DNA of 64,000 nt from Lacibacter luteus. Its GTDB lineage: Bacteria; Bacteroidota; Bacteroidia; Chitinophagales; Chitinophagaceae. Every line of letters begins with the position of its first letter. The stretch's first letter is position 1. Under the pieces are notes generated by a model. It saw only the letters and a program-made list of their open reading frames with translations. It did not search any database and was not told the DNA's origin. Positions 26,058 to 43,043 of this stretch are shown piece after piece. The stretch covers positions 186,001 to 250,000 of the forward strand of contig NZ_SDHW01000006.1 in the NCBI RefSeq assembly GCF_004118265.1, in the 5' to 3' direction. The position numbers were made by a program, and so were the translations under genes.

Positions 26058-26148
26058 AACTTTCCGGGTTTGCTGGGTTAGTAAGTTTTTGTTGTGAATG
26101 GTGAATGGTCAATAGTGAATGAATTGCTCATCACTACTTACTCATCAC
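26058..26148. repeat. degenerate short repeats in the ftsA-ftsZ spacer
   Basis: The stretch from about 26093 consists of GTGAATGGTGAATGGTCAAT-like units followed by CTCATCACT-like units of the opposite sense, so it can fold on itself. Similar units occur at 27721-27760 and 35602-35655. Confidence 0.5.
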
Positions 26149-27549: not shown

Positions 27550-27753
27550 AGTTGTATGTTGTTTTAGTTGTGTGCGTGTTTGTTTTTTATGGTTATCAAC
27601 TTTTGTACTTTATTCATCTTCGTTGTGTCACTCACTTCATCGTTCTTCGAACTCTCCTCGTTAACCCACCCCATTTACCTATCTCCTGTGTAACAGCTTG
27701 CTCCCCCTCCCTGGAGGGGATTTACTCTCTCATCACTCATCATTCATTACTCA
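27550..27753. repeat. 204-bp ftsQ-ftsA spacer with a GC-rich palindrome and short repeats
   Basis: No gene is visible. It contains CCCCTCC-CT-GGAGGGG (27704-27719), a palindrome of the same type as the ends of the nuo-operon repeats, followed by CTCATCACTCATCATTCATT-like units up to about 27760, which run into the end of ftsQ. Confidence 0.5.
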
Positions 27754-28920
27754 TCATTGATCCCTCTTCTTCATCACTGCCTTAGGTTGTTTTTTCACAG
27801 GTTGGCTTTTAGCTTCGTTAAGGACATTGTTTTCTTCGGTTTTTGGTTTGGGTTTTGGACTTTGCACATTGGCCTTTTTGTCTTGTGCCTTGTCTCCCTG
27901 TACCTTGGTTCCTGTTGAGGGGGTAGGGAGTTGGTTTTTCAAAGCATTGTGATTTTGGTTTTGTGGTTTCACAGTAGCGGACTTTAAAACGGGCTCTGTA
28001 GGTGTTGGTTCACTCTTATAGATCCCAGAGGTAAGCAAACTATCAGGTTTTGTATTTGCTGTTGCAGCATAACCGGTATCAACAGCAGTGTTAACCTGAT
28101 AATTATTTTGTTCAACTACTAAACTTGCAAACAGACTTGCACTGTCTCTGCGCACTGCAACAAGTTGTTTATCGAAACGCACATCTAATGCGCTGTAATA
28201 ATTCCATCCGGTTTTGTTCATGATCTGTTTATAGAACAACAGCAGGCGGTTAAACTTCGGTTCAATTTTTTCTGCTGCTCCAAACTTAATGATGTGATTG
28301 CCGAGCTTTGGTACTAATTCAAATTCGTAGTTGCTGATGTTTACCTGTTCTACCTGCGCCATCCAGAAATCGTTACGTAAAATGAACCGTCCCATTTCCT
28401 TTATCTGCTGTTGCAGCACACTATCCTTTGTACGTGCAGCAGTTGTTTCTGTAGGGAACGATGTAAATACAGGCACACGTGCAACCTGGTCGTTGGTTAC
28501 AGGTAATTGCTCACCTAAGTCGTCGATATAAAACGATTGACCATTTGTACGAAATACTCTCGCCACCGGTTCACGTTCAGTAATATCAACATGCAATACA
28601 TCATTATTATCAAAGAACAGTTCGGCATTACGGATCCACAGGTTGCGTTCCAGCAATTGTTCCAGCTGTTGCAGATCGAATGTTTTTACCAGCTGACCTT
28701 TCATTAAATCAGGTCGGCCGCCGGAAATGGTTTTCAGAATTTGCTTTTTGCTTACATATTCCACACCATCAACAGCTTTCATTTTCACCAGTACATCTTT
28801 ACAACGCTTTCCGTTTTGATTGCGGGCAGCAGCAACCAGCAATACAATTGTGCATGCCCCTACTGTTGTCCACAGCATGGCCAGCATCAACTTTTTCCAC
28901 GAAAACTTTTTACTGCTCAT
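27754..28920 (-). CDS. ftsQ: cell division protein FtsQ
   Basis: A single-pass membrane protein of the divisome. Short cytoplasmic tail, membrane segment at about 11-30 (LMLAMLWTTVGACTIVLLVA), POTRA-like region (KMKAVDGVEYVSKKQILKTI) and FtsQ beta domain (RNAELFFDNNDVLHVDITER). At 388 residues it is longer than usual because of a Lys/Pro/Gln-rich C-terminal tail of about 100 residues that looks disordered. It follows murC by 7 bp. Confidence 0.88.
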   Translation of the reverse strand: MSSKKFSWKKLMLAMLWTTVGACTIVLLVAAARNQNGKRCKDVLVKMKAVDGVEYVSKKQILKTISGGRPDLMKGQLVKTFDLQQLEQLLERNLWIRNAELFFDNNDVLHVDITEREPVARVFRTNGQSFYIDDLGEQLPVTNDQVARVPVFTSFPTETTAARTKDSVLQQQIKEMGRFILRNDFWMAQVEQVNISNYEFELVPKLGNHIIKFGAAEKIEPKFNRLLLFYKQIMNKTGWNYYSALDVRFDKQLVAVRRDSASLFASLVVEQNNYQVNTAVDTGYAATANTKPDSLLTSGIYKSEPTPTEPVLKSATVKPQNQNHNALKNQLPTPSTGTKVQGDKAQDKKANVQSPKPKPKTEENNVLNEAKSQPVKKQPKAVMKKRDQ

Positions 28921-28927
28921 TGTATAA

Positions 28928-30298
28928 TTATGCTTCGATCGTCTTTTTTAATTCCTGCAACAACGCATCAATATCGCCTGCTCCTGCTGTTACAAATACA
29001 CTGTTAGCATCCACTTTTAACTTCACACTATTCAATAATTCCTCTTTCGTTAGAATCGCTTTCTTCTCCAGCTTCATCTTGTTTAAGATGAGCTCGCTTG
29101 TTACACCTTCAATGGGTAATTCACGTGCCGGGTAAATCGGTAACAGAATTACTTCATCTGCCATATCCAGACTGGCTGCAAACCCATCGGCCAGATCTCT
29201 TGTTCTTGTGAACAGGTGGGGCTGAAACACCAACACCAGTTTCTTGTCTCCAAACAAACTTCTTGCTCCGGTAATCAACGCTCTCAGTTCTTCAGGATGA
29301 TGTGCATAATCATCAACAAACACTACCTCTCCTTCACCCGGCGCAATCACATATTCAAATCTTCTTTTCACTCCTTTAAAAGCTGCAACCGCTGCTTTTA
29401 TTTTTTCATCATCGATCTTCAGTATATGTGCAACTGCAATAGCAGCCAATGCATTTTCTACATTGTGCAATCCACCAACATTCAATAACACATCTTTCAA
29501 TAACCAATCGCCAAACACTACATCAAAAACATAACTGCCGTTTTGCACTTTCAAATTCGTTGCATGTACAGTTCCATTTGTATTGTTGAGATGATAGGTG
29601 ATATGATTATCTGCAACCAAATCACTGTATCGCTTCAATCCATGTTTGCTGATGAGCCAGCCACCGGGTTTGATCTTACGAGTAAACTCGATGAAGGCTT
29701 CTTCCATTGCTTCAGCAGTTCCATAGATGTCTAAGTGATCAGGATCCATTGCGGTGATCACTGCAACATCAGGACTCAGTTTGTGAAAAGAACGATCGTA
29801 TTCATCAGCTTCCACCACACAAACATTATTATCGCTTGCCCAGAAGTTGCTGTTATAATTCACCGCAATACCTCCGAGAAACGCATTGCAACCATAACCA
29901 CTGTGGCGAAGCAAATGCCCCGTCATTGTACTGATAGTTGTTTTACCATGCGTGCCTGCTACGCAGATGTTCAAAGAACTTTGTGTAATGATCTGCAATA
30001 CATCACTCCGCTTTACTACACTGTACCCGTTTTGCAGATAATACTGATACTCTTTATGCTCTTTCGGAATAGCAGGTGTATAAACCACTAACTGCACATC
30101 CTTCGGAATCAATTCTACTTCTTCGCTGTAGTGAATCGCAATTCCTTCAGCTTCCAGTTGCGATGTAAGCGGCGTTACTGTTTTATCGTAACCGCTTACT
30201 TTCACTCCCTTCTCATTAAAGAACCTTGCGAGTGCACTCATACCAATGCCACCAATTCCTACGAAGTACACTGCTTTTATATCGTTCAACTGAATCAT
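28928..30298 (-). CDS. murC: UDP-N-acetylmuramate--L-alanine ligase
   Basis: First amino-acid-adding Mur ligase: joins L-Ala to UDP-MurNAc with ATP in the cytoplasm. N-terminal Rossmann motif GIGGIGMSALARFF (about 13-26), ATP-binding loop GTHGKTT near 115, and the DDYAHHPEE motif near 325. At 456 residues the length is normal. Its ATG overlaps the stop of murG (ATGA). Confidence 0.96.
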   Translation of the reverse strand: MIQLNDIKAVYFVGIGGIGMSALARFFNEKGVKVSGYDKTVTPLTSQLEAEGIAIHYSEEVELIPKDVQLVVYTPAIPKEHKEYQYYLQNGYSVVKRSDVLQIITQSSLNICVAGTHGKTTISTMTGHLLRHSGYGCNAFLGGIAVNYNSNFWASDNNVCVVEADEYDRSFHKLSPDVAVITAMDPDHLDIYGTAEAMEEAFIEFTRKIKPGGWLISKHGLKRYSDLVADNHITYHLNNTNGTVHATNLKVQNGSYVFDVVFGDWLLKDVLLNVGGLHNVENALAAIAVAHILKIDDEKIKAAVAAFKGVKRRFEYVIAPGEGEVVFVDDYAHHPEELRALITGARSLFGDKKLVLVFQPHLFTRTRDLADGFAASLDMADEVILLPIYPARELPIEGVTSELILNKMKLEKKAILTKEELLNSVKLKVDANSVFVTAGAGDIDALLQELKKTIEA

Positions 30299-31389
30299 TT
30301 CTTTATCAACTTCAATACTTCTGTTGCAATTACTGTGTCTGCATTATCTACACCCAGCTTTGCAATGTTTTGTTTCAATTCGTTTTGCTTTGCTTCATCC
30401 CTTGCCAATGCAATGATGCTGCTTACTAATTTTTCTTTTGCTTCACTATCCTTCACCATCAGCCCTGCATGCTTCTCAACCAAATGCTGTGCATTTACTG
30501 TTTGATGATCTTCTGCCGCAAAAGGAAACGGCACAAATACAGCAGGCTTTGCTACCAAACAGATCTCCGCAATGGCCATGGCGCCTGCTCTTGAGATCAC
30601 CACATCAGCTGCAGCGTATGCGTTCTCCATCTCTTTAATAAAATCGTTTACCCACACATTTGCTTTTCCGTTTGCGCTGGCTTTGCCTTGTGCAGCATAA
30701 GGTTTACCTGTTTGCCAGATGAGTTGCAGATCGTTTTGTTGAAACTGATCGATACCTGCATCAATGGCTTCGTTAATACTTTTTGCACCGAGACTTCCAC
30801 CAACCACCAGCACTGTTTTCTTCTCCGTATTCAAACCAAAGAACTTCAAACCTTCTTCCTTACTTACAGTTGCATGTGCAATTGCAGAACGAACTGGATT
30901 ACCTGTGATCATCAACTTCTCTGCAGGAAAAAACTTTTGCATCTTATCACTCGCCACAAATACTTTCGTTGCCTTCTTTCCTAACAGGATATTACTCTTG
31001 CCCGCAAACGAATTGCTTTCGTGAATGAACGTTGCAATGCCTTTGCTTTGCGCAAAACGCAATACCGGAAAGCTGGAATAACCACCTACACCTATTACTG
31101 CATCGGGCTGAAAATTGTTAATGATGGTACGTACCTGGAAAAAACTCTTTAACAACTTAAACGGCAAACCGATGTTTTTTATCAAAGAACTTCTGTTAAA
31201 ACCTGCAATATCCAACCCCTCTATTTTGTAGCCGGCCTGCGGCACTTTTTCCATTTCCATTTTTCCCTTTGCACCTACAAACAAAATCTCTGCATCGGGT
31301 TGTTGTTTTTTAATGGCATTGGCAATGGCGATGGCAGGAAAAATATGTCCACCGGTTCCACCTCCCGCTAAAATCACTTTCACACTCAT
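30295..31389 (-). CDS. murG: UDP-GlcNAc:undecaprenyl-PP-MurNAc-pentapeptide GlcNAc transferase
   Basis: Makes lipid II on the inner face of the membrane. Start chosen at the ATG at 31389, which gives MSVKVILAGGGTGGHIFPA with the glycine loop at the very start and a 4-bp ATGA overlap with ftsW; the frame is open to 31476 inside ftsW but that start is not needed. GT28 C-terminal motifs GGSLGAKSINEAI and VISRAGAMAIAEI are present. The product has 364 residues. Confidence 0.96.
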   Translation of the reverse strand: MSVKVILAGGGTGGHIFPAIAIANAIKKQQPDAEILFVGAKGKMEMEKVPQAGYKIEGLDIAGFNRSSLIKNIGLPFKLLKSFFQVRTIINNFQPDAVIGVGGYSSFPVLRFAQSKGIATFIHESNSFAGKSNILLGKKATKVFVASDKMQKFFPAEKLMITGNPVRSAIAHATVSKEEGLKFFGLNTEKKTVLVVGGSLGAKSINEAIDAGIDQFQQNDLQLIWQTGKPYAAQGKASANGKANVWVNDFIKEMENAYAAADVVISRAGAMAIAEICLVAKPAVFVPFPFAAEDHQTVNAQHLVEKHAGLMVKDSEAKEKLVSSIIALARDEAKQNELKQNIAKLGVDNADTVIATEVLKLIKK

Positions 31390-32627
31390 GCCAGTTCCTC
31401 CTTTGCAGGTTCTGCCGAACCTTCTGCATCTTCTACATTTCTTGCAACACTTAAAATAATTCCGATTGCTAAGCACGTAAACAGAAAACTACTACCACCC
31501 ATACTCACCAATGGAAGTGTTACACCTGTTACGGGAAACAAACCCACATTCACCGCCATATTCGTCATGGCCTGTATTACCAATGTAAAGCTTAAGGCCA
31601 ATGCCAGGAATGCACCAAATGCATACGGACATTTTCTGAACAACCGTATACTCCTGAACAAAAACACCATGTAAATAAACACGATGAACGAAGCACCGAT
31701 CAACCCATACTCTTCAATAATGATGGCATAGATATAATCGGAATACGGATGCGGTAAGAAATTGCGTTGCTCACTGTTACCCGGACCAAGACCGAACAAA
31801 CCACCTTTTGCAACAGCGATCTTTGCCTGTTGCACCTGGTAAGGTGCTTCGCTTTTTGCTGCATACATAAAATCCTGCACACGTTTGATCCATGTTGGAA
31901 TACGCCCTGCAGATAAAACCGCAGGCAGTTCTTTTGTTTTTCCCTCAGCCTTATCGTAATAAGCACCGGCAATGGAAATAAGAATAATTACAGGCACCAG
32001 CACCGCAGCTGCAACCAATGCAATATGCTTAAAGCTTACACGACCAATGAACAATAACAACATACTTGTTGCCCCGGTAAGCAATGCGGTTGATAAATTA
32101 GCTGGTGCAATCAATCCGCAGATAACAACGATCGGCATCATCAACGGCAGAAAGCCTTTCTTAAAATCTTTGATCACATCCTGTTTCTTCGATAACAATC
32201 TCGACAAATACATGAACAAAGCCAGCTTGGCAATGTCGGATGTTTGCACTGTGAGATTAATAATGGGCAGCTTTATCCAACGACTGCCATCATTGATTTT
32301 TGCACCGAAGAACAATGTATAAATGAGTAATACAATGGAGATGTAGAATAACATCTTTGCCACCCTTGAGTAAATAGTATAGTTTACACGATGTGCAAAA
32401 TAAACAATGATGATGCCAAGTGTGATGAATGCAATCTGTTTAAACAAATAAACAAATGTGTTGCCTTTGTATAATTTATACGCCAATGAATTAGTAGCAC
32501 TATACACCACCAATAAACTTACCAGCGACAATACAACCACGATTGCCCAGATCACTTTATCGCCACGGGTTTTATCCCGCAGCCCTGCCGGTGAAAATTT
32601 AGATGATATGTTTGCGATTTGATTCAA
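31386..32627 (-). CDS. ftsW: peptidoglycan glycosyltransferase / division protein FtsW
   Basis: A SEDS-family membrane enzyme with about ten membrane segments that polymerises septal glycan with its partner FtsI. Conserved parts are PAGLRDKTRGDKVIW at the start, FFGAKINDGSRWIKLP, GNSEQRNFLPHPYSDYIYAI and VTGVTLPLVSMGGSS near the end. The only plausible start is a TTG at 32627; no in-frame ATG occurs before the first membrane segment or between here and murD. At 413 residues the length is typical. Confidence 0.95.
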   Translation of the reverse strand: MNQIANISSKFSPAGLRDKTRGDKVIWAIVVVLSLVSLLVVYSATNSLAYKLYKGNTFVYLFKQIAFITLGIIIVYFAHRVNYTIYSRVAKMLFYISIVLLIYTLFFGAKINDGSRWIKLPIINLTVQTSDIAKLALFMYLSRLLSKKQDVIKDFKKGFLPLMMPIVVICGLIAPANLSTALLTGATSMLLLFIGRVSFKHIALVAAAVLVPVIILISIAGAYYDKAEGKTKELPAVLSAGRIPTWIKRVQDFMYAAKSEAPYQVQQAKIAVAKGGLFGLGPGNSEQRNFLPHPYSDYIYAIIIEEYGLIGASFIVFIYMVFLFRSIRLFRKCPYAFGAFLALALSFTLVIQAMTNMAVNVGLFPVTGVTLPLVSMGGSSFLFTCLAIGIILSVARNVEDAEGSAEPAKEELA

Positions 32628-32736
32628 AAGCTTGTTTCTTGTTTTCCGTTTCTTGTTTCTTGTTTCTTGTTGCTGAGCACGCTTTGGTTTCTTAGTTCTT
32701 ACTTCGTACCTCGTACTTCTAACTTTGTACTTGTGC
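32628..32736. repeat. murD-ftsW spacer made of short degenerate repeats
   Basis: Plus-strand units CTTGTTT repeat at 32631-32672, followed by CGTACTT-like units (TACTTCGTACCTCGTACTTC, near 32700-32720, and TTTGTACTTG). No stop interrupts the ftsW frame through it, but no ATG either. A similar CGTACTT stretch stands before the gene at 60918. Confidence 0.55.
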
Positions 32737-34077
32737 TTACAGATTTCTTACCGCTTGCTTAAACTGATCGCCTCTGTCTTCGTAATTTTTAAACAGATCG
32801 AAACTTGCGCATGCAGGACTCAGCAATACAGCATCACCCTTTTCTGCAAAATGATACGCTGCTTTCACCGCATCTTCTGCACTTGTGGTATTTACCATCA
32901 AGGCAACAGTATCGCCAAATGCTTCATGAATTTTTCTGTTATCTAACCCAAGACAAACAATTGCTTTTACTTTTTCCTTCACCAGTTCTTTCAACACTTC
33001 GTAATCATTTCCTTTATCAACACCACCTAAGATGAGGATAGTTGGACGGGTCATACTTTCCAACGCATACCAGGTAGAGTTGATGTTGGTAGCTTTACTG
33101 TCGTTCACATACTCCACTCCTTTTACCATTGCCACCATCTCCATCCGATGCGCAAGACTCTCGAACGTAGTAACGGCTTCCCTTATTTTCTCCTTGCGGA
33201 TACCTAACGTAGCCGCTGCAATACCTGCTGCCATGGTGTTGTATTGATTGTGTTTACCCTTGATCTTAAAATCGTCGACACTCATAGTGAGTTTGTCGTC
33301 GTTTACTGCAATCGTCATTGTTCCGTCTTTAATAAAAGCGCCTTTTTGCGGTTCTTGTTTCATGGTGAATGGTAATGGGTTTGATTGGAGAGTAAGTTTC
33401 TTTAAATATTTTGCTGTTACCGGATCGTCCGGACAGTATATGAAAGAATCGTTTGCTGTTTGGTTATTCGTGATCTTGAATTTTGCGTTGATATAATTTT
33501 CAAACTTGTAATCGTACCGGTCTAAATGATCTTCGGTGATGTTGGTGAGCACAGCAATATCTGCTTTGAACTCTTTAATATCATCGAGCTGAAAACTGCT
33601 GATCTCTGCTACATACACTTCCTTTGGATCGAGTGCCACCTGTTTGGCAATACTGATACCGATGTTTCCTACCAATGCACAATCAACACCTGCATGTTTG
33701 CAGATATGATAAGCCAATGATGTTGTAGTTGTTTTGCCGTTGCTTCCCGTAACAGCAAGTATTTTACTGCTGCCTTTAAAGCGATACGCAAGTTCAATTT
33801 CACTGATGACCGGAATGCCCTGTTTTCGGATTTTCTTCATCATCTCACTCTTTTCAGGAATACCGGGGCTCTTCACAATTTCATCTGCACTTAAAATTTT
33901 CTCTTCGCTGTGCATGCTTTCTTCAAACTCAATTCCATACTCCCGCAACTCTTCTTTATAAATGTTTTTGATAGGTCCTGCATCGCTCACAAATACATCA
34001 TACCCCTGCTTCTTTGCAAGAATAGCTGCGCCTGCTCCACTTTCGCCGCCTCCTAGTATGTAACATTTGTGTGCCAT
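32737..34077 (-). CDS. murD: UDP-N-acetylmuramoyl-L-alanine--D-glutamate ligase
   Basis: Second Mur ligase, adds D-Glu. N-terminal Rossmann motif GGGESGAGAA, ATP loop GSNGKTTTTSLAY near 113-125, and the metal and substrate motifs NITEDHLDRYD and HRMEMV. The C-terminal domain carries the usual LLSPACASFDLFKNYEDRG. At 446 residues the length is normal. Confidence 0.96.
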   Translation of the reverse strand: MAHKCYILGGGESGAGAAILAKKQGYDVFVSDAGPIKNIYKEELREYGIEFEESMHSEEKILSADEIVKSPGIPEKSEMMKKIRKQGIPVISEIELAYRFKGSSKILAVTGSNGKTTTTSLAYHICKHAGVDCALVGNIGISIAKQVALDPKEVYVAEISSFQLDDIKEFKADIAVLTNITEDHLDRYDYKFENYINAKFKITNNQTANDSFIYCPDDPVTAKYLKKLTLQSNPLPFTMKQEPQKGAFIKDGTMTIAVNDDKLTMSVDDFKIKGKHNQYNTMAAGIAAATLGIRKEKIREAVTTFESLAHRMEMVAMVKGVEYVNDSKATNINSTWYALESMTRPTILILGGVDKGNDYEVLKELVKEKVKAIVCLGLDNRKIHEAFGDTVALMVNTTSAEDAVKAAYHFAEKGDAVLLSPACASFDLFKNYEDRGDQFKQAVRNL

Positions 34078-34309
34078 AAGCTGGTTGCAGGTTGCCTGTT
34101 ACCTGTTACTGGTAACCTGCAACCAGTAACTTCTTTTTGGATTTTGGTTTTCTCCTTTCTTTCATTTCGGCAGAAATAAAAGAAGGTTCTTCACAAGTAT
34201 GGGTTAGTACTCGATCCTTCGGTGGTTCACAGACATTGGACACTGTTGGTCTTACACAGGATTGGATGGGTAAGGATTGAAAACCAGGGGTGGTTTTTCA
34301 AAAACCTCT
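34078..34309. repeat. 232-bp mraY-murD spacer with nested inverted repeats
   Basis: CTGGTTGCAGGTT (34081-34093) pairs with AACCTGCAACCAG (34114-34126). Inside, GTTACC (34098-34103) can pair with GGTAAC (34111-34116), which overlaps the right outer arm by three bases, so the two stems compete. A second hairpin, GAAAACCA with TGGTTTTTC, lies at 34280-34300 next to the mraY stop. No gene is visible. Confidence 0.6.
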
Positions 34310-35587
34310 TTACCGGATTTTGAGTGTTACAATCGCAAACGCAACGCAGAGGATGGTTACAATCCAGAAACGTGTTACGATTTTACTTTCATGAAATCCT
34401 TTTTTCTGATAATGATGATGGAGCGGACTCATTAAGAAAATCCTTCTGCCTTCACCATATTTCTTTTTGGTATACTTGAAATAACTTACCTGCAGTGTTA
34501 CACTCAGTGTTTCTACAAAAAACACCGCACACAAAATCGGAATCAACAATTCTTTACGTACTAAAAACGCAAGCGATGCAATTACACCACCCAACATCAA
34601 ACTTCCTGTATCGCCCATAAACACCTGCGCAGGGTAAGAGTTGTACCAGAGAAAACCGATACATGCACCAATCATGGCTGCAATAAAAATGGACAGCTCG
34701 CCAATACCCGGCACATACAATATGTTGAGATATTCTGCAAGTCGTGAATCTCCACTGGCATAAGCAAAAATGCCAAGGCCAATACCGATAATGGCAGATA
34801 CTCCTGTTGCCAAACCATCAATACCATCTGTTAAGTTGGATGCGTTTGACACAGCTGTAACAATAAAGATGACAGCCAGTACATATATCAACCAGGTTAT
34901 ACCACGCATTGCCTTCGGCAACAGCTTTGAGTAATTGAACTCATGGCTTTTTACAAAAGGAATTGTTGTAACCGGTTCGTTTGCCTTAACCATTACACGT
35001 TCTTTTCCATTAAGTTTTACCACAATTGTATCGGCATTTGCCGGAACAGTTGTGCCTGTAAACTCACGGTAAGCACTAACCGAATCGTTAAACATCAGCG
35101 TTGTTGCAACGGCAATACCCAATACCACTTGCCCTAAAACTTTAAACCAACCTGCCAAACCATCTTTATCACCTTTCTTATAAGCAATGCCTTGTTCCTG
35201 AGCAATTCGCTTGGCTCGTATCTTTAAATAGTCATCAATAAATCCAATCAGTCCCATCCATACAGTTGCAAACAACATCAACAGAATATAAACCTTACTT
35301 ACATCGGCCAGCAAAAGGGTTGGAACTACAATTGCAAGTATGATGATAAGACCACCCATGGTTGGTGTACCTTTCTTTTGTTGCTCACCCGCCAATCCTA
35401 AATCACGAACGGTTTCACCTACTTGTTTTTTACGCAGGTAGTTGATGAGCTTTTTACCAAACACCGTTGAAATGATCAGCGATAACAATACCGCCAGCAT
35501 CACCCTGCTGGTGATGAACTGAAACAGATTGTCGCCCGGCATTTTAATTCCGATGCTGTTCAACCAATCAAATAAGTTCTTTAACAT
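34310..35587 (-). CDS. mraY: phospho-N-acetylmuramoyl-pentapeptide transferase
   Basis: Makes lipid I on the membrane. A polytopic enzyme with the family motifs GTPTMGGLIII, GFIDDYLK (catalytic Asp pair), NLTDGIDGLATG and GDTGSLMLGG, and the C-terminal PLHHHYQKKG. At 425 residues it is longer than the roughly 360 of Escherichia coli because of an insert near 165-215 (YREFTGTTVPANADTIVVKL), which looks periplasmic. Confidence 0.96.
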   Translation of the reverse strand: MLKNLFDWLNSIGIKMPGDNLFQFITSRVMLAVLLSLIISTVFGKKLINYLRKKQVGETVRDLGLAGEQQKKGTPTMGGLIIILAIVVPTLLLADVSKVYILLMLFATVWMGLIGFIDDYLKIRAKRIAQEQGIAYKKGDKDGLAGWFKVLGQVVLGIAVATTLMFNDSVSAYREFTGTTVPANADTIVVKLNGKERVMVKANEPVTTIPFVKSHEFNYSKLLPKAMRGITWLIYVLAVIFIVTAVSNASNLTDGIDGLATGVSAIIGIGLGIFAYASGDSRLAEYLNILYVPGIGELSIFIAAMIGACIGFLWYNSYPAQVFMGDTGSLMLGGVIASLAFLVRKELLIPILCAVFFVETLSVTLQVSYFKYTKKKYGEGRRIFLMSPLHHHYQKKGFHESKIVTRFWIVTILCVAFAIVTLKIR

Positions 35588-35656
35588 GTGTTTCTTTTTA
35601 TCGTGAATCGTCAGTGGTGAGTCCTGAATACTTACTCATCACTGATTACTCATCAT
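35588..35656. repeat. murE-mraY spacer with a short stem and CTCATCA units
   Basis: AGTGGTGAGT (35613-35622) pairs with ACTCATCACT (35634-35643), and CTCATCATTCAT follows. The units resemble those in the ftsA and ftsQ spacers. Confidence 0.45.
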
Positions 35657-37123
35657 TCATCTTTCTAACAGTTCAAACATTTGTTCCAGTACCTGTTTAT
35701 CATCAAACGCATACTTTACGCCTTTGATCTCCTGGTACTTTTCGTGTCCTTTACCTGCAATCAGAATAATGTCTTCGTTCTTTGCAAGACTTACTGCTGT
35801 TTTAATTGCTTCCTTGCGATCGGCAATGGAAATAAATTTTCTTCTTGCTGCGCTGCTCAACCCGTATTCCATATCAGCAAGAATTTCCAACGGATCTTCG
35901 CTGCGTGGGTTATCGCTGGTGAAAATCACCTTATCACTTAATTCACAAGCCACTTCACCCATTACCGGACGTTTGGTTTTATCTCTATCGCCACCACAAC
36001 CAACAACCGTAATAATCTGTTCGTGTCCTCTTCTTAATTTCTTAATAGTTCCTAATACATTTTCCAACGCATCGGGTGTATGTGCATAATCAATAATGCC
36101 GAGTATTAAATGGTTGGGAGAAATGATATAGTCAAATCTTCCTTCTGCACCTGTAATGCTGCTTAATACCTGCAACACTTTTTGTTTGTCTTCACCCATC
36201 GATACTGCTGCACCATAAACTGCCAGCAGATTATATGCATTAAACTCACCGATCAACCGAAAATGCACTTCATCATTATTCACCATCATCTGCAAACCTG
36301 TTAATCCGTTTTCAAGGATCTTGCCTTTGAAATCAGCGAGGTTCTTTAAACCGTAGTACAGTTTTTTTGCTTTTGTATTCTGCAACATCACTTCACCCCG
36401 CTTATCGTCCTTATTACTGATTGCAAATGCATCCTTACCTAATCCATCAAAAAAGCTCTTTTTAACTTTGATGTATTCATCAAAAGTTTTGTGATAATCG
36501 AGGTGATCGTGGGTGATGTTGCTGAACAAAGCCCCGGTAAAATGAATACCGGTAATACGATGCTGGTGTATAGCATGACTGCTGCACTCCATAAACACAT
36601 ACGTGCAACCTGCATCATACATTTCTTTTAATAAACTGTTGAGATTAATAACATCGGGAGTAGTATGTGTAGAAGGATAAACTTTATCGCCTACATGATA
36701 CTGCACCGTAGAAACCAATCCGCAGCGGTAACCTAAACCGCTGAACAATTTGTATAATAATGTTGCAATGGTTGTTTTTCCGTTTGTGCCGGTAACACCC
36801 ACTACGTTCATTTGTGTTGTAACACTTCCAAAGAACTCGTTAGCTATATAACCGGCCGCTTCTGCACTGTTGGCAACCTGTACGTAGGTTACATCTTCCT
36901 TCAAATGCTCCGGTAACTGTTCGCAAATAATTGCTGATGCACCTTGCTCAACTGCTTTCGCAATAAATGCATGCCCATCAACCGAAACACCTTTTACTGC
37001 AATAAAGCAGGTACCTGCTTTTACATGGCGTGAATCGATCTGCAGATCGTTCACATCAACTGTTGTTGATCCGTGAACGCTGCGCAGATGCACTTTGTAC
37101 AATATGTCTTTTAACTCCGCCAT
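35657..37123 (-). CDS. murE: UDP-N-acetylmuramoyl-tripeptide synthetase (meso-diaminopimelate type)
   Basis: Third Mur ligase. ATP loop GTNGKTTIATLLY near 112, carbamylated-lysine region, and the motif DNPR (in FTSDNPRSEDP), which is typical of enzymes that add meso-diaminopimelate, so this organism should have DAP-type peptidoglycan. At 488 residues the length is normal. Its ATG overlaps the stop of ftsI by one base. Confidence 0.95.
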   Translation of the reverse strand: MAELKDILYKVHLRSVHGSTTVDVNDLQIDSRHVKAGTCFIAVKGVSVDGHAFIAKAVEQGASAIICEQLPEHLKEDVTYVQVANSAEAAGYIANEFFGSVTTQMNVVGVTGTNGKTTIATLLYKLFSGLGYRCGLVSTVQYHVGDKVYPSTHTTPDVINLNSLLKEMYDAGCTYVFMECSSHAIHQHRITGIHFTGALFSNITHDHLDYHKTFDEYIKVKKSFFDGLGKDAFAISNKDDKRGEVMLQNTKAKKLYYGLKNLADFKGKILENGLTGLQMMVNNDEVHFRLIGEFNAYNLLAVYGAAVSMGEDKQKVLQVLSSITGAEGRFDYIISPNHLILGIIDYAHTPDALENVLGTIKKLRRGHEQIITVVGCGGDRDKTKRPVMGEVACELSDKVIFTSDNPRSEDPLEILADMEYGLSSAARRKFISIADRKEAIKTAVSLAKNEDIILIAGKGHEKYQEIKGVKYAFDDKQVLEQMFELLER

Positions 37124-39228
37124 TAATTGAGATACAACATGATTTCCTGTCCTTTCGCAACAGGCGCACCTGCAGCAACAGACGTGTTTACAATTCTTCC
37201 TCTTCCTGTTACCTGTACTTTCATACCGGCTGTTTCCAGTACATACAAAGCATCTTTCAAACCCATACCTTTTACATCGGGCATTACTGCATTCGATGTT
37301 TGTACGGTTTGTGATTGCACTGTTTTATTTTTTAAGTACGAACGTCGCCAGCTGCCTGCCAACTGATCGGCATAAGTAAAGCCAAACTGTGTGGCAATAC
37401 TGTTTACTTCTTTCTTTAAACCTGCAAATGTGTACAGCATTGAATCCTGTACCGGCAATTGCAAGGGCTGCTGTTTGTCGATGCTGTATTTATATAAGTG
37501 ATCGGCAATTTCTCTAAACACCGGTGCAGCTACAGAACCACCATAGTAGTTGGCTGCATGCGGTTTATTTTTCACCACTACAATAATGGAGTACTTCGGT
37601 GCATCGGCCGGAAAGTATCCTGCAAAGGCAGATTGATACACACCATCACGATATTTATATTTACCATCGTTCACTTTTGCTGTACCTGTTTTACCTGCTG
37701 CTTTGTAAGGAGCGGTTTCAAATTGTTTACGTGCTGTACCATCTGTACAAACCGCAGCCAAACATTCCTGCAATTGTTTAATGGTTGCTTCGCCTGCAAC
37801 AGCTTCGTTTAATACAACAGGTTCGTTTTTGCGAATAATTGTTCCGTAACTTTTTATTTCGTTCAACAGGTAAGGCTTCATCATCTTACCATTGTTGGCA
37901 ACAGCATTGTACACCATCAACATTTGCAGAGGCGACACCATCAATTCATATCCAAAGCCCCACGATGCCAATGTTTGCGGGTGCCAGTTCTTTGGTTTCA
38001 CCTTATTGGGGTTACGAATAAGCGGACTGAACTCTTCATTTAATTCAACACCTGTTTTTGAAGTGAGATGAAGTGCTGTAAAATGTTTGTAATACTCTTT
38101 TGGTTTGCCAGTATAATATTGATAGGCAAGTTTACTCATTGCAACATTCGAGCTTTGAATAAACGCTGTTTTAATATTTGTTACTTCAGGGCCATGATGA
38201 TCGTCTACAATTGTTCTTCCATTCAAATTCCAACGACCACCGTGTATGGCAATATTATCATTGATGGTTACATGCTTATCTTCCAATGCAGCTAATAATG
38301 TAACCAGTTTAATGGTTGAACCCGGCTCGGAAGTACGCAACGCATAATTATCTGTTTCGAAATATTGTCCTTCAGGTGTGCGGCCAAGGTTTGCAATGGC
38401 TTTGATTTTTCCTGTTGCCACTTCCATTACAATACATGTTCCTTCCAATGCTTCATTGGTAGTCATTGTACGCATTAATGCACGCTCGGTAATATCCTGA
38501 ATGTTTACATCAATGGTTGTGTACACATCATCGCCATTTTCAGGTTCTACTTCAAAACCTTCAACCGGCATTAACACACCGCCTGCTACGTAGCGCACCA
38601 AACGTTTACCTGTTGTACCACGCAACACACTATCGAACGAACGTTCTAAACCAACCAGTTTCGAATTTTCACGATACAATCCAATGGTACGGAAACCCAA
38701 TTCACCAAAAGGATTTAAACGTTTTGTTTTTACTTCAGCAATAAAACCACTTTTGTTACGGCCCAAACGCACCAATGGAAAAGCACGCAACTCTTTATAC
38801 TCTTCGAACGATACTTTTTTATGCAGCTGATAATAACGCTCTTTGTCTTTATAAGCCTGCTTCAATTCCTTTTTATATTCAGCAGCAGTTTTATTGTTAA
38901 ACAACCCTGCAAGAGAAATACTTAACGAATCAACATTCTCATAAAAATTCTTTCCTTCTTTTGCACGCAAACCATCGGCACCAAAGTCGATGTAAATATC
39001 AAACTGTGGTAAAGATGTGCTGAGCATACTTCCATCTTCACTGTAAATAGTACCACGTTCAGCAGCAAGATCAAGGATCTTTGTATGCAGACTATCGCCC
39101 ATGCTTTTCCAATAGCTTCCCTCGAAACGTTGTGTGTAAAAAGCCTTCCCCAAAATAAGGAAGCCAAATACACCCAGTCCGAGAAAACCGAGGTAAACAC
39201 GCCACAATATGTCTTTCTTTACTTCCAT
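37123..39228 (-). CDS. ftsI: septal peptidoglycan transpeptidase FtsI (PBP3) with one PASTA domain
   Basis: A single-pass membrane class B penicillin-binding protein. Membrane segment at about 10-29, PBP dimerisation domain to about 220, transpeptidase domain with the active-site triad S304-x-x-K307 (STIK), S359-x-N361 (SSN) and K513-T-G515 (KTG), and a C-terminal PASTA domain at about 648-701 (MPDVKGMGLKDALYVLE). PASTA on a division PBP is usual in Bacteroidota and Gram-positives but not in Escherichia coli FtsI. One-base overlaps with both neighbours. Confidence 0.94.
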   Translation of the reverse strand: MEVKKDILWRVYLGFLGLGVFGFLILGKAFYTQRFEGSYWKSMGDSLHTKILDLAAERGTIYSEDGSMLSTSLPQFDIYIDFGADGLRAKEGKNFYENVDSLSISLAGLFNNKTAAEYKKELKQAYKDKERYYQLHKKVSFEEYKELRAFPLVRLGRNKSGFIAEVKTKRLNPFGELGFRTIGLYRENSKLVGLERSFDSVLRGTTGKRLVRYVAGGVLMPVEGFEVEPENGDDVYTTIDVNIQDITERALMRTMTTNEALEGTCIVMEVATGKIKAIANLGRTPEGQYFETDNYALRTSEPGSTIKLVTLLAALEDKHVTINDNIAIHGGRWNLNGRTIVDDHHGPEVTNIKTAFIQSSNVAMSKLAYQYYTGKPKEYYKHFTALHLTSKTGVELNEEFSPLIRNPNKVKPKNWHPQTLASWGFGYELMVSPLQMLMVYNAVANNGKMMKPYLLNEIKSYGTIIRKNEPVVLNEAVAGEATIKQLQECLAAVCTDGTARKQFETAPYKAAGKTGTAKVNDGKYKYRDGVYQSAFAGYFPADAPKYSIIVVVKNKPHAANYYGGSVAAPVFREIADHLYKYSIDKQQPLQLPVQDSMLYTFAGLKKEVNSIATQFGFTYADQLAGSWRRSYLKNKTVQSQTVQTSNAVMPDVKGMGLKDALYVLETAGMKVQVTGRGRIVNTSVAAGAPVAKGQEIMLYLN

Positions 39229-39554
39229 TAATTTTCTTTCAGCTTTGTACTGTCTGTTAATTTGATGGGTTGCTGAATATTTTCTTTTAAACCAATTGTT
39301 TCTGTTGCCTTTGCCACTTCGCTCAAACGGTTTTGATACATTAATCTTCCGTTGAGTGTTTTATACTCATACTCCTGCTCACGTAATTCTTTGGTTGTTT
39401 TGTTAATGTTCCGGATTGTATTATCGGCATAATGGCCATTGGCGATGTAGATGATCGCCAGTACAGAGAGAAAGAGAAAGTATGGAACGTTGCGAACGAT
39501 CCACTGGTAATTGAACCACTTTTTTACATCAATCTTCGGCTCTTTTACTGCCAT
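39228..39554 (-). CDS. FtsL-like division protein
   Basis: A 108-residue protein with one membrane segment at about 22-40 (NVPYFLFLSVLAIIYIAN) and a coiled coil after it (NKTTKELREQEYEYKTLNGRL). Size, topology and position between rsmH and ftsI identify it as the FtsL counterpart, although sequence identity in this family is too low to see. It overlaps ftsI by one base. Confidence 0.85.
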   Translation of the reverse strand: MAVKEPKIDVKKWFNYQWIVRNVPYFLFLSVLAIIYIANGHYADNTIRNINKTTKELREQEYEYKTLNGRLMYQNRLSEVAKATETIGLKENIQQPIKLTDSTKLKEN

Positions 39555-39615
39555 TGGTTTGTTTGTAATTTTTCCCGTTATCTGTTTTTGTTTATGCTTG
39601 TGTTTTACAATGGGT

Positions 39616-40572
39616 CTAGAGTTTTTCGGCTACACGTAGCCGTGCACTTCTTGATCTTGAGTTGCGCTTCAGCTCTTCGGCCGAAGCTTCTATTGGCTTT
39701 TTTGAGAGAATGTGAAACACTTGTTCCTTTACTTCCCTGTCGAAAGGGTTATACGATTCCTCTTCAAAACTTCCCTTTTTAAAAAAGTTTTTAACCAATC
39801 TGTCTTCCAGCGAATGAAAGGAAATGATGGCCGCACGGCCTTTGGGTTTCAGTACCGCAGGCAACTGCTCTAACAATTCTTTCAATACACCTAATTCATC
39901 ATTCACTTCAATACGCAATGCCTGGAATACCTGTGCGAAATATTTATTGGGATTACCCTTTACAACCGGTTGCAATGCCTGTTTAAGATGCTCAATGGTT
40001 TGAAACGGATTGGTGCTGCGCTGCTGAACAATTGTTGCTGCAAGCGTTTTTGCATTTGTTACCTCACCATACTGTTCAAACAATTTATGCAGCTGCTGTT
40101 GCGAGTAAGTTTGAAGGATGGTTGCGGCGGTTACGGGTTGCGATGGATCCATCCGCATATCGAGCGGACCATCGAACCTTGTAGAAAAACCTCTTGCACC
40201 TTCATCAAACTGGTGACTGGAAACGCCAAGGTCGGCCATTACACCGTCCACTTTTGAAAAGCCGTTGAGTTTTAAAAAGCGTGACAGATGTTTAAAGTTG
40301 TGCGGCACAAAAACAATGCGTTCATCATCGGGAAGATTTCGTTTGGCATCGGGATCCTGGTCGAAAGCAACCAGTTTACCGTTCTTTCCCAATCGCTTTA
40401 ATATTTCCCTGCTATGCCCACCGCCACCAAATGTGCAATCAACATACACCCCATCGGACTGTATGTTCAGAGCATCCACCGTTTCATTCAACATTACAGG
40501 AACATGATAAACATCCTGTTGCTGATTGGCCTGGCCTTCATCAGCAGTTGGTATGTGTTTTTGTTTCGCCAT
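39616..40572 (-). CDS. rsmH: 16S rRNA m4C1402 methyltransferase RsmH
   Basis: Methylates N4 of C1402 in 16S rRNA with S-adenosylmethionine. Motifs HVPVMLNETVDAL, the SAM loop DCTFGGGGHSREIL, DLGVSSHQFDEGARGFS and ISFHSLEDRLVKNFF are all present. At 318 residues the length is normal, with an N-terminal Gln-rich tail. It follows mraZ by 14 bp, the standard dcw arrangement. Confidence 0.96.
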   Translation of the reverse strand: MAKQKHIPTADEGQANQQQDVYHVPVMLNETVDALNIQSDGVYVDCTFGGGGHSREILKRLGKNGKLVAFDQDPDAKRNLPDDERIVFVPHNFKHLSRFLKLNGFSKVDGVMADLGVSSHQFDEGARGFSTRFDGPLDMRMDPSQPVTAATILQTYSQQQLHKLFEQYGEVTNAKTLAATIVQQRSTNPFQTIEHLKQALQPVVKGNPNKYFAQVFQALRIEVNDELGVLKELLEQLPAVLKPKGRAAIISFHSLEDRLVKNFFKKGSFEEESYNPFDREVKEQVFHILSKKPIEASAEELKRNSRSRSARLRVAEKL

Positions 40573-40586
40573 ACTTCTTGCTGTGC

Positions 40587-41036
40587 CTAAAGTTTCACCA
40601 TCACCTCACTCGCCAGGTTGCTGAAATCGCTGGCTGAAAGGGTTTCAAAGAACTGTTTGTACTTATTACTATCCCATATTTCTATCTTGTTTCCTTTGGC
40701 AAACAACACCGCATCCTTATCGAGCCCTGCATATTCTTTCAACTGAGCGGGGATGAGCAAACGACCTGCAGAATCCAGTTCCACCGTTGTAGCTCCGTTC
40801 AAAAAGAAGCGTTGGAATTGCCTTACCTTCGGATCGAAATCGTTTAAAGAACTTATTTGGGTGAAAATGGGTTCCCAATGCTTCATGTGGTATAACGTGA
40901 GGCAGGAATCGAGGCCACGACTTACCACAAATTGGCTATTCCACTCTTCCGGCATCTGCTTTTTAAAGCCAGCCGGGAGCAGGAATCGACCTTTTACGTC
41001 GAGCGTTACCTCATATTCTCCCAGAAAACCAATCAT
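40587..41036 (-). CDS. mraZ: transcriptional regulator MraZ
   Basis: A two-repeat AbrB-fold DNA-binding protein that represses its own dcw operon. The paired motifs are visible: DVKGRFLLPAGFK at about 14-26 and DSAGRLLIPAQLK at about 88-100. At 149 residues the length is typical. First gene of the cluster. Direct repeats directly upstream (41051-41095) fit its known type of binding site. Confidence 0.95.
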   Translation of the reverse strand: MIGFLGEYEVTLDVKGRFLLPAGFKKQMPEEWNSQFVVSRGLDSCLTLYHMKHWEPIFTQISSLNDFDPKVRQFQRFFLNGATTVELDSAGRLLIPAQLKEYAGLDKDAVLFAKGNKIEIWDSNKYKQFFETLSASDFSNLASEVMVKL

Positions 41037-41050
41037 TTAAACGATTTTGA

Positions 41051-41095
41051 CACTAAACCTACACATTTACACACAAAATAACACTTTTTCCCACT
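41051..41095 (-). promoter_or_regulatory. putative MraZ operator: GTG repeats at 10-bp spacing
   Basis: On the minus strand GTG triplets start blocks GTGGGAAAAA, GTGTTATTTT, GTGTGTAAAT and GTGTAGGTTT at exact 10-bp spacing (CAC on the plus strand at 41062, 41072, 41082 and 41092), plus one more at 41051. MraZ of other bacteria binds three or four TGGGN-type direct repeats of this period in front of mraZ. The site lies 15-60 bases before the ATG. Confidence 0.65.
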
Positions 41096-41319
41096 TTCAA
41101 ACCAAAAGTGAAAGTTTTTATTTTTTCCACAAACCGCTATGCCTTTACGGTAAAGGGTTTCAGGGGAAAACCATTGCTTTTTTGGTGAACAGAGATGTGA
41201 ATTGCGGTGAATAACCCGTGGATAAACGAAGGCTAAATGTGAATTAAACGAATTGCCAGAGCAGACTACTCTACAACTCATCTTGTGCAACATCAATCCT
41301 GAATGAAAAAACTTTATCG

Positions 41320-41407
41320 AGGTATCTGACGTTTAGCAACGTCCTGATACCAATCTCCGAATTTCAGAGAGTTTGTGGTATCAGGACAACGCAGATGTCA
41401 GACACCT
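41320..41407. repeat. 88-bp palindromic element
   Basis: Two arms of about 32-33 bases (41320-41352 and 41376-41407) match with 12 exact outer-loop bases (TGGTATCAGGAC) and a near-exact 11 at the ends (GTCAGAYACCT). The loop has its own TCTC/GAGA pair. The form is that of a MITE or REP-like element. Confidence 0.65.
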
Positions 41408-41557
41408 TGTTGTTTTTACTGATTGGTGTGGATTCGAAAATAATGCTGATGTTGTTTCGCAAGTTGAAAAGCGAGTGGTAGTAACGTTAGTATAGAATGT
41501 GCTGTTACAGAACAATGGAGCGGATTGAAACTGGTAATACCAGTTGCGAAGAAATGA

Positions 41558-42886
41558 TTACTTCTTCAACGGTAACTCAACTGTAAACGTGCTGCCCTTA
41601 CCAACAACGCTATCGGCTTTTACTTTACCACCGTGTGCTTCCACCATTGTTTTTACATAGCTCAAGCCTAAACCAAAACCTTTTACATTGTGTACATTAC
41701 CTGTATGTGCACGGTAGAATTTTTCAAACACTCTTGTAAGTGTTTCTTTGTTCATGCCTATACCATGATCTTCTACAGTAATGCGGATGAACTTGCCTGC
41801 ATTACGTGTAGCGATATTTAAACGGAATGAATCGTCTTTGGAATATTTCAATGCATTATCAACAAGGTTGTTGATGAGGTTGGTGAGGTGTACTTCATCT
41901 GCATCCATTACATCGTTTGTGGCGTTGAGCTGTACATCTACCTTGCCCTGTTTCTCTTCTATCTGTAACTGCAGGTTGCTTAATACTTTGTTGATGATGT
42001 CGTGTACATGCAGTTCACGCAGATTTAATTGCACTTCCTGTCGCTCCATTTGTGCAGCCTGCAGAATCTGTTCCACATGTTTGTTCATGCGTTTGTTTTC
42101 ATCCTTGATCATGGTAGTGAAATAGCTGAGCTTATCAGGATTGCTCAACACTTTTTCACTCTTTAACGCATCTACTGCCAGTGAAATCGTTGCAAGCGGA
42201 GTCTTTAACTCATGCGTCATGTTATTGATGAAGTCGTTTTTCATATCGCCCAGTTTTTTCTGGCGCAACAACGTACGGATGGTTAAGAAGAATGCTGTGA
42301 TGATGATGAGTGTAAACAACAATGAACCGGTAATCATCCAACCCAACGATTGGATAACATAATTTTTTACGTCGGGCACCACAATTACAAACACTTCATC
42401 AGGTGCAAGACTTTCGAGATACGTTCCGCTTGCAGCAACCAACGGATACCATACTTTCAGGTTATGTACCGTATCGATTGCCATATCCATAAACTGTTGC
42501 GACTTTAGTTCGTAATGCCCAAACACGTTATCACTTGCAACAGCAAATTCAAACTTGGTATCTTTTAAGTTTTGTCGTTGAAAGGCCTTCTGCAACTTCT
42601 CTTTAATCTCATACAATGTAAAGCGATTGGTAACCGAAAACTGTTTGTAAATATCATAGCCATCGCCGGGGAATTTCATACCAGGCATACGGCCGAGATT
42701 ATTAAACGCATCGCTTCGTTGCATTACCAATTCATCGCCCACCTGTTGAATAACGGTCGACAGTTTTTCCTTCAATTGTTCTTCCCGCAACTGTGCAAGG
42801 TTTTTTAACCACGATACCTGGATATAGATAATACCCATCAACGATAAAGTGATCAAAGCAATAATTACGGGAAATGTTTTCTTCAT
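41558..42886 (-). CDS. membrane sensor histidine kinase
   Basis: Start chosen at the ATG at 42886 (MKKTFPVIIALITL); the frame is open to 42967 without features. The 442-residue protein has membrane segments at about 5-25 and 180-203 that flank a periplasmic sensor region of about 150 residues that I do not recognise. A HisKA domain follows with His225 in MTHELKTP, then N box NNLVDNALKYS (N344), G1 DHGIGM and G2 GFGLGLSYV. No response regulator gene is adjacent, so its partner must lie elsewhere. Confidence 0.92.
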   Translation of the reverse strand: MKKTFPVIIALITLSLMGIIYIQVSWLKNLAQLREEQLKEKLSTVIQQVGDELVMQRSDAFNNLGRMPGMKFPGDGYDIYKQFSVTNRFTLYEIKEKLQKAFQRQNLKDTKFEFAVASDNVFGHYELKSQQFMDMAIDTVHNLKVWYPLVAASGTYLESLAPDEVFVIVVPDVKNYVIQSLGWMITGSLLFTLIIITAFFLTIRTLLRQKKLGDMKNDFINNMTHELKTPLATISLAVDALKSEKVLSNPDKLSYFTTMIKDENKRMNKHVEQILQAAQMERQEVQLNLRELHVHDIINKVLSNLQLQIEEKQGKVDVQLNATNDVMDADEVHLTNLINNLVDNALKYSKDDSFRLNIATRNAGKFIRITVEDHGIGMNKETLTRVFEKFYRAHTGNVHNVKGFGLGLSYVKTMVEAHGGKVKADSVVGKGSTFTVELPLKK

Positions 42887-42921
42887 GTGTTGTGTTCCTG
42901 TTATACAATTTCGGCAGTGTG

Positions 42922-42929
42922 CAAAAATA
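42922..42929 (-). promoter_or_regulatory. candidate -7 element of the histidine-kinase gene
   Basis: TATTTTTG on the minus strand matches TAnnTTTG exactly and lies 36-43 bases before the ATG at 42886. No clear -33 element was found. Confidence 0.35.
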
Positions 42930-43043
42930 CCCTTGAAAATTAAAGGAAATCCCCGATTTAAAAACAAGCAGTCTTTTTAACGTGCCTTTTACATTACATT
43001 TTCAAAAGAAGGAAATTTGAATTTTCCTTAGTATATTAATGTT

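Follow-up and report, generated by a model that had tools for sequence, protein, structure and literature searches.

Which regulators act on the division and cell-wall (dcw) cluster of Lacibacter luteus, and what are the GTG blocks that stand directly in front of its first gene, mraZ? The locus lies within a stretch of 64,000 nucleotides, hereafter called the window. A first-pass annotation had read the blocks as a probable MraZ operator with an unusually high number of repeats. From the comparison of related sequences, we arrive at a broader answer: the ~520-bp region before mraZ probably (at a rough probability of 0.75) controls the dcw cluster and receives two inputs, MraZ and DnaA. Within it, the GTG blocks represent another instance of known MraZ operators, and the composite control region is the new part.

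The genes concerned are encoded on a single strand:

40587 to 41036, minus strand: mraZ, 149 aa, gene number 1 of the dcw cluster; Pfam MraZ (PF02381), E 7.7e-35, in two stretches
24183 to 40572, minus strand: remaining dcw cluster

The mraZ product bears both MraZ domains (PF02381), as members of the MraZ protein family do, and matches four different MraZ sequences of known structure. Its start codon is located at 41036–41034 of the minus strand, and the gene heads the dcw cluster. Of the genes that follow, mraW, an ftsL-like gene, a PBP/ftsI-like gene, and murE were recognized by Pfam, and those from the mraY-like to the ftsA- and ftsZ-like genes (the latter at 24183–26057) were assigned from sequence reading alone. 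Upstream of mraZ, beyond the intergenic gap of ~520 bp, lies a histidine kinase gene (41558–42967).

On the transcribed strand, the final 58 bp upstream of the mraZ start open with GTGGGAAAAA GTGTTATTTT GTGTGTAAAT GTGTAGGTTTA GTGTC, which can be divided as follows:

41090 to 41094, minus strand: predicted MraZ box 1, GTGGG, in block GTGGGAAAAA (41085–41094); conserved in the profile of 97 family sequences, fits TGGGN
41080 to 41084, minus strand: predicted MraZ box 2, GTGTT, in block GTGTTATTTT (41075–41084); near-invariant in the family
41070 to 41074, minus strand: predicted MraZ box 3, GTGTG, in block GTGTGTAAAT (41065–41074); GTG in 97 of 97
41060 to 41064, minus strand: predicted degenerate MraZ box 4, GTGTA, in block GTGTAGGTTTA (41054–41064); NTG in 57 of 97, GTG in 9 of 97
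41049 to 41053, minus strand: block 5, GTGTC; GTG in 4 of 97; of 11 aligned genus members, only the window has it

The coordinates and the spacing given before—four GTG blocks with an exact 10-bp step and a fifth block after 11 bp—are right. A run of four GTG at exact 10-bp distance is found a single time in the window and in none of 100 dinucleotide shuffles. In the 5.07-Mb genome, such runs occur at two places, mraZ and C23:60997–61029, and three GTG at 10 bp give 16 matches, for which the backward control is identical to the pattern and so uninformative. The second run (L148:5998–6030, minus strand) precedes a gene of unknown function that was matched in just 4 of 14 genus genomes, and marks a possible second MraZ site. 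An inverted repeat ACTTTC...GAAAGT with 6-bp arms (41093–41115) ends in box 1; by eye, it is present in one relative (L002) and absent from three others (L004, L005, and L008).

Relatives were collected in a first set (56 of 59 matched, upstreams of 50 used) and in a further set comprising the best 80 of 87 relatives; among the latter is Lacibacter cauensis (L052), a close relative whose MraZ shows 93% identity. The family/order set of 130 loci yielded 118 unique upstreams after removal of duplicates and of one short locus (L104), and 97 of 102 family upstreams were alignable for a column profile. As the compared sequences are related, the counts given here do not stand for independent events. 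Three GTG at exact 10-bp distance are present in 109 of the 118 upstreams, where a first-order Markov model lets one expect 0.11; in the aligned family set, 93 of 97 keep the three core GTG exactly, and the core AAA-GTGGGAAAAAGTGTTATTTTGTG is near-invariant. For the class Bacteroidia, 110 of 119 genomes matched and 90 loci (L149–L238) were read. Five were dropped from the counts—L149, L159, L164, and L172 from the window's own family and L162 with a misplaced start—and the resulting 85 upstreams include several same-family pairs, unthinned. Three exact GTG in 10-bp register appear in 57 of them (0.07 expected) and three TG in the same register in 73 (3.5 expected). The class boxes are mostly GTGGK with A-rich spacers. 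Hereby, box 2 marks a difference: GTGGK followed by A-rich sequence in the class stands against the near-invariant GTGTTATTTT of Chitinophagaceae.

Direct repeats with a 10-bp period just before mraZ are hence kept in relatives, as is expected for an operator, and the GTG blocks almost certainly are the operator of MraZ. This reading appears safe because family, order, and class all preserve the period, and because the blocks resemble both the E. coli operator and the Mollicute motif; the identity of the gene and the position add to it. The operator proposed by the first-pass annotation thus stands, including the period in close relatives on which it had been made to depend, and so does the remark that only one block, block 1, fits TGGGN. 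The E. coli form, with TGGGN in all boxes, was not found. Two further claims did not hold up. The number of blocks is not unusually high, as block 5 is shared by no other aligned genus member and most of the family has a degenerate block 4; block 5 is probably due to chance or strain-specific. Nor is the divergence from TGGGN a matter of the strain, given that the GTGTT of block 2 is near-invariant in the family and that all five blocks fit GTG[T/G].

What holds block 2 so constant? A second element appears to be placed on top of it:

41074 to 41081, minus strand: TTATTTTG, a candidate promoter -7 element that overlaps with boxes 2 and 3; proposed from its near-invariance and from the class motif TAnnTTTR

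TAnnTTTR is found in 71 of 85 class upstreams (22.7 expected), and the family TTATTTTG fits it inexactly. Block 2 is probably near-invariant in the family because it overlaps this promoter element, so that box 2 might double as a -7 element in Chitinophagaceae; the positions of the element and of the start site are predictions. A promoter of the E. coli sigma-70 type was rejected, as a scan of 40500–41600 gave two matches, both on the other strand, with 1.9 expected.

Further upstream, the alignment reveals a second conserved island, TGTGGAWAAA, from -37 to -28 relative to box 1. In the window, it contains an exact site:

41123 to 41131, plus strand: inverted DnaA box TTTTCCACA, which the transcribed strand shows as TGTGGAAAA; it begins 37 bp ahead of box 1

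The reverse complement of TGTGGAWAA, TTWTCCACA, fits the DnaA box consensus TT[A/T]TNCACA, as given in PMC4674748. The exact motif is present in 96 of 102 family upstreams, in 82 of them at exactly -37, whereas mononucleotide shuffles lead to an expectation of 0.35 of 118 regions. The W column of the 97-sequence profile comprises 60 A and 37 T, with neither C nor G. Profile columns further upstream do not exceed 0.53 bits, and between both islands a few reach 1.0. The site lies ~50 bp upstream of the candidate -7 element.

A second group of sites follows at 150 to 225 bp before the start codon. In the window, it consists of three boxes with one mismatch each:

41206 to 41214, minus strand: DnaA box of the array, TTATTCACC
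41217 to 41225, minus strand: DnaA box of the array, TTATCCACG; an exact box in the 11 other genus members read
41238 to 41246, minus strand: DnaA box of the array, TAATTCACA

This array was assessed in 500 bp of 102 unique family upstreams (from 112 loci offering that length) by scanning for TTWTNCACA, one mismatch being allowed. Between -225 and -150, the three 25-bp bins hold 41, 140, and 85 sites, with 9.7 expected per bin; from -500 to -225, the bins hold 5 to 18. Nearly all sites of the array share one orientation—269 of 278 read toward mraZ and 9 away—and their mutual distances cluster at 10/11, 20/21, 31/32, and 42 bp, that is, with a 10.5-bp period. At least two such boxes are present in 94 of the 102 regions, and at least one exact box in just 54. 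The exact boxes read TTATCCACA (28), TTTTCCACA (11), TTATTCACA (10), and TTATGCACA (8), plus nine others. If TTATCCACA is freed one position at a time, any of the four bases is accepted at position 5 (C 28, T 10, G 8, A 3), and there is hardly any variation at positions 4, 6, and 8, which agrees with a DnaA box. Positions 1 (CTATCCACA, 15) and 2 (TAATCCACA, 25) vary as well, which the DnaA consensus disallows; part of the array is therefore weak or something else. The motif is not enriched at large, which counts against the DnaA reading: exact TTWTNCACA occurs 11 times in the whole 64-kb window, with 14.6 expected, and TTWTCCACA 78 times in the genome of the window, compared to 133 for the backward control. 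Boxes fitting TTWTNCACA are conserved in place before mraZ, in the manner of a DnaA-dependent control region.

Are these boxes also found where DnaA is expected to act? Tandem TTATNCACA pairs within 30 bp are rare, with 11 places in 18 family genomes. Four of these lie ~165–220 bp upstream of mraZ (twice in G031, once each in G028 and G017), three upstream of nadA (twice in G031, once in G015), one ~250 bp upstream of dnaB (G022), and three elsewhere. In G031, seven exact TTATNCACA boxes are lined up between nadA and the gene for NADH-dehydrogenase chain 3 (L296:2437–2688, C1 at ~2.376 Mb). The GC skew, noisy and sampled at 20 stretches in this genome, turns positive around this cluster: 8 of the 10 stretches up to 2.30 Mb are negative, all 7 between 2.40 and 3.80 Mb are positive, and the sign is mixed beyond 4.1 Mb. 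In G002 (25 stretches, equally noisy), it changes from negative to positive near 0 Mb, with nadA at 17–18 kb and boxes upstream of it. Within 900 bp upstream of nadA, 10 of 11 genomes hold at least two exact TTWTNCACA, the window's own genome having two. The exception is G027 (L353), which has no exact DnaA box over this length and whose matched nadA frame contains one TAA. The site upstream of nadA, which carries boxes in other genera too, is the probable oriC of Chitinophagaceae, so that boxes of the mraZ type would recur at the origin of replication. The mraZ upstream region itself was considered as oriC and rejected: mraZ lies at 2.76 Mb in G031, where the skew switches at 2.3–2.4 Mb, and at 3.98 Mb in G002, where it switches at ~0 Mb. 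Being remote from both switches, the mraZ boxes are therefore not the origin. The dnaA loci of the 18 genomes mostly contain few boxes; unlike the others, the dnaA locus of G133 (L249:17–265) shows five DnaA-box-like sites within 250 bp.

Pairs of the wider motif TTWTCMACA were found at 25 direct and 18 inverted places. The flanking genes were read at a selection chosen for clustering, from which no rate is derivable: at nine inverted places—gyrA three times, nadA/oriC, parA, dnaB, and three without a recognized replication or division gene—and, in addition, at clusters of G170 (dnaN), G133 (ftsZ), and the window's genome (smc, G000 C11:1035734). An inverted TTWTCCACA/TTTTCAACA pair is placed shortly before gyrA in three genus genomes including that of the window (L293:2501–2531, L294:2526–2556, and L295:2556–2586); GyrA was confirmed by Pfam in one of these (L293), and the other two share its N-terminus. 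In the window's genome, a TTATCAACA/TTTTCAACA pair of the TTWTCAACA type stands just upstream of smc (L259:735–764; G000 C11:1035734–1035763), and pairs with this spacing occur in G002 and G010 as well. In G133, four TTTTCMACA sites are packed into 60 bp between the ftsA- and ftsZ-like genes (L306:2471–2530). Mixed TTWTCAACA/TTWTCCACA pairs precede gyrA, dnaN, ftsZ, and dnaB, and a TTATCCACA pair precedes a parA-like gene.

Outside the family, the arrangement takes an altered form. In 53 of the 85 class upstreams, TTWTYMACA ends 1–4 nt before box 1. These abutting sites read TTTTCAACA (26), TTATTAACA (13), TTATCAACA (7), TTTTCCACA (4), TTTTTAACA (2), and TTATCCACA (1), so that most have the form TTWTCAACA or TTATTAACA and deviate from the DnaA consensus by one or two changes. 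TTWTYMACA is present anywhere in 61 of 85 upstreams and TGTGGAWAA in 10 of 85 (1.8 and 0.5 expected under the Markov model); either one is found in 70 and neither in 15. The far array was not seen in class upstreams outside Chitinophagaceae. In 35 of 62 motif pairs, TAnnTTTR follows the DnaA-like site at 46–48 bp, with small groups about one turn off at 36–37 bp (four pairs) and 56 bp (five pairs). For the phylum, 76 of 80 genomes matched, and 25 loci (L360–L384) were read by eye, of which L382 belongs to the class. Most of the other 24 retain GTG boxes, often preceded by a TTGAC-like element, and no DnaA box recurs at a constant position among them; TGTGGAAAA appears further upstream in three.

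The class site could belong to a regulator other than DnaA, and of the competing explanations this unlikely one survives best. It is favored by TTATTAACA (13 of 53), which departs from the DnaA consensus at two places and forms the weakest case among the DnaA-box-like forms of the class, and by the many copies that read GTTWTYAAC, a partly symmetric sequence. Against it, TTWTCCACA occupies the same place in 5 of the 53 class sites and in two loci of the order (L043 and L048), and TTWTCAACA occurs together with TTWTCCACA before gyrA, dnaN, ftsZ, and dnaB. This common position and the mixed pairs support the view that TTWTCAACA acts as a DnaA box in Bacteroidota; PMC4674748 also names TTATCAACA as a DnaA box of Cyanothece.

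Taken together, the dcw promoter is best described as a putative dual DnaA/MraZ switch. MraZ, the product of the first gene, would bind three or four GTG boxes that follow each other at one helical turn and overlap with the core promoter, and might repress its own operon by blocking RNA polymerase; both binding and sign are taken over from E. coli and Mycoplasma genitalium. DnaA, the replication initiator, would bind the inverted near box and the upstream tandem array, nearly all boxes of which read toward the gene. The identity of these sites as DnaA boxes is well supported, because of the consensus and the comparison with the probable oriC; the binding of DnaA to them is presumed. DnaA might then raise or time dcw expression around the initiation of replication, and MraZ might set its ceiling.

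The sign of the DnaA effect is less certain than the presence of its sites. We lean slightly toward activation, because the sites lie upstream of the promoter, the usual position of an activator, and the ~50 bp from the near box to the candidate -7 element favor activation over occlusion. Alternatively, DnaA might bind and repress jointly with MraZ, much as it represses its own gene in E. coli according to PMC8203912. The sites, however, are located upstream of and not over the predicted core promoter—a merely suggestive position—and we regard joint repression as doubtful.

An improbable alternative is that the boxes form a DnaA reservoir or an origin fragment (datA-like or oriC-like) that came to lie near mraZ by chance. 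The tandem array with its 10.5-bp period does resemble the DnaA oligomer arrays found at origins. However, the sampled skew suggests an origin close to nadA, at a distance from mraZ of 0.39 Mb in G031 and more than 1 Mb in G002, and a function at the promoter is indicated by the abutting class site, which mostly keeps 46–48 bp to a -7-like element.

The region might also be an MraZ operator only, with TGTGGAWAA and the array as further MraZ boxes or promoter elements. TGTGGAAAA indeed has GTGG followed by A-rich sequence and in this resembles an MraZ box. Yet the near site has its GTG 36 bp away from box 1, which breaks the 10-bp register; the array reads TTWTNCACA toward the gene (269 vs 9), so that any GTG inside is on the opposite strand from the MraZ boxes; and the same boxes are present at the probable oriC of Chitinophagaceae. 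This explanation is accordingly given little credence. An unusual operator with five functional boxes, for which the five GTG of the window speak, was rejected as most improbable of all, since block 5 is off the 10-bp register and, among 11 aligned genus members, is shared by no other.

If the dual DnaA/MraZ switch is real, the dcw promoter of Chitinophagaceae carries an origin-like tandem DnaA array. Its extension to the class is an even bet: across Bacteroidia, the dcw promoter would be a composite DnaA/MraZ switch, and boxes of this type, found before gyrA, smc, ftsZ, dnaN, dnaB, and parA in various members, would form a DnaA cell-cycle regulon, tying the expression of division and cell-wall genes to the replication initiator across the whole class. 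A DnaA cell-cycle regulon with such genes was not found described for Bacteroidota in the literature searched, nor was the DnaA/MraZ layout in the literature on MraZ sites or DnaA control, as covered by titles and the beginnings of abstracts, with subscription journals poorly represented. For mutagenesis, the promoter offers a defined element, with DnaA sites and MraZ operator spaced almost constantly ahead of the complete division cluster throughout the family and, in altered form, the class.

How does this layout compare with known systems? The E. coli mraZ operator is alike in its GTGGG boxes, its exact 10-bp period, and its place directly before mraZ, with the sequence GTGGGAAATTGTGGGGCAAAGTGGG (GTGGGAAATT GTGGGGCAAA GTGGG); Eraso et al. 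are said to have described it in 2014 as TGGGN boxes with N5 spacers. It differs in bearing three full GTGGG, whereas the window has GTGGG in box 1 alone and GTGTT in box 2 over the predicted promoter, and the window has DnaA boxes upstream. According to PMC8475190, E. coli MraZ is a repressor acting via MraZ boxes, the cluster is up in an mraZ mutant of Mycoplasma genitalium, and MraZ overexpression in Mycoplasma gallisepticum went along with more FtsZ; MraZ therefore need not be a repressor. The same paper quotes Fisunov et al. 2016 for the Mollicute MraZ site, in which AAAGTG[T/G] is directly repeated. This compares well with the GTG[T/G] of all five window blocks and with boxes 1 and 2, which read AAAGTGG and AAAGTGT; blocks 3 to 5, in contrast, lack the AAA.

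For DnaA, the closest parallel is Bacillus subtilis, where it binds at the ftsL promoter (Goranov et al. 2005, as quoted in PMC8203912 and PMC11019786). The operon concerned contains rsmH (mraW), ftsL, and pbpB, so that replication status can reach these same genes; levels of RsmH and PbpB were comparable to wild type with two oriC boxes blocked (PMC11019786). Here, on the contrary, the predicted sites precede mraZ in a fixed layout with the MraZ operator, which is conserved in the family and, in altered form, in the class; DnaA binding is observed in B. subtilis and presumed here. In Caulobacter crescentus, DnaA binds the ftsZ promoter in vitro (PMC8203912), which is alike as DnaA control of a division gene and differs in gene and layout. 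With DnaA binding known at ftsL of B. subtilis, the idea of a link between DnaA and the dcw cluster has a precedent.
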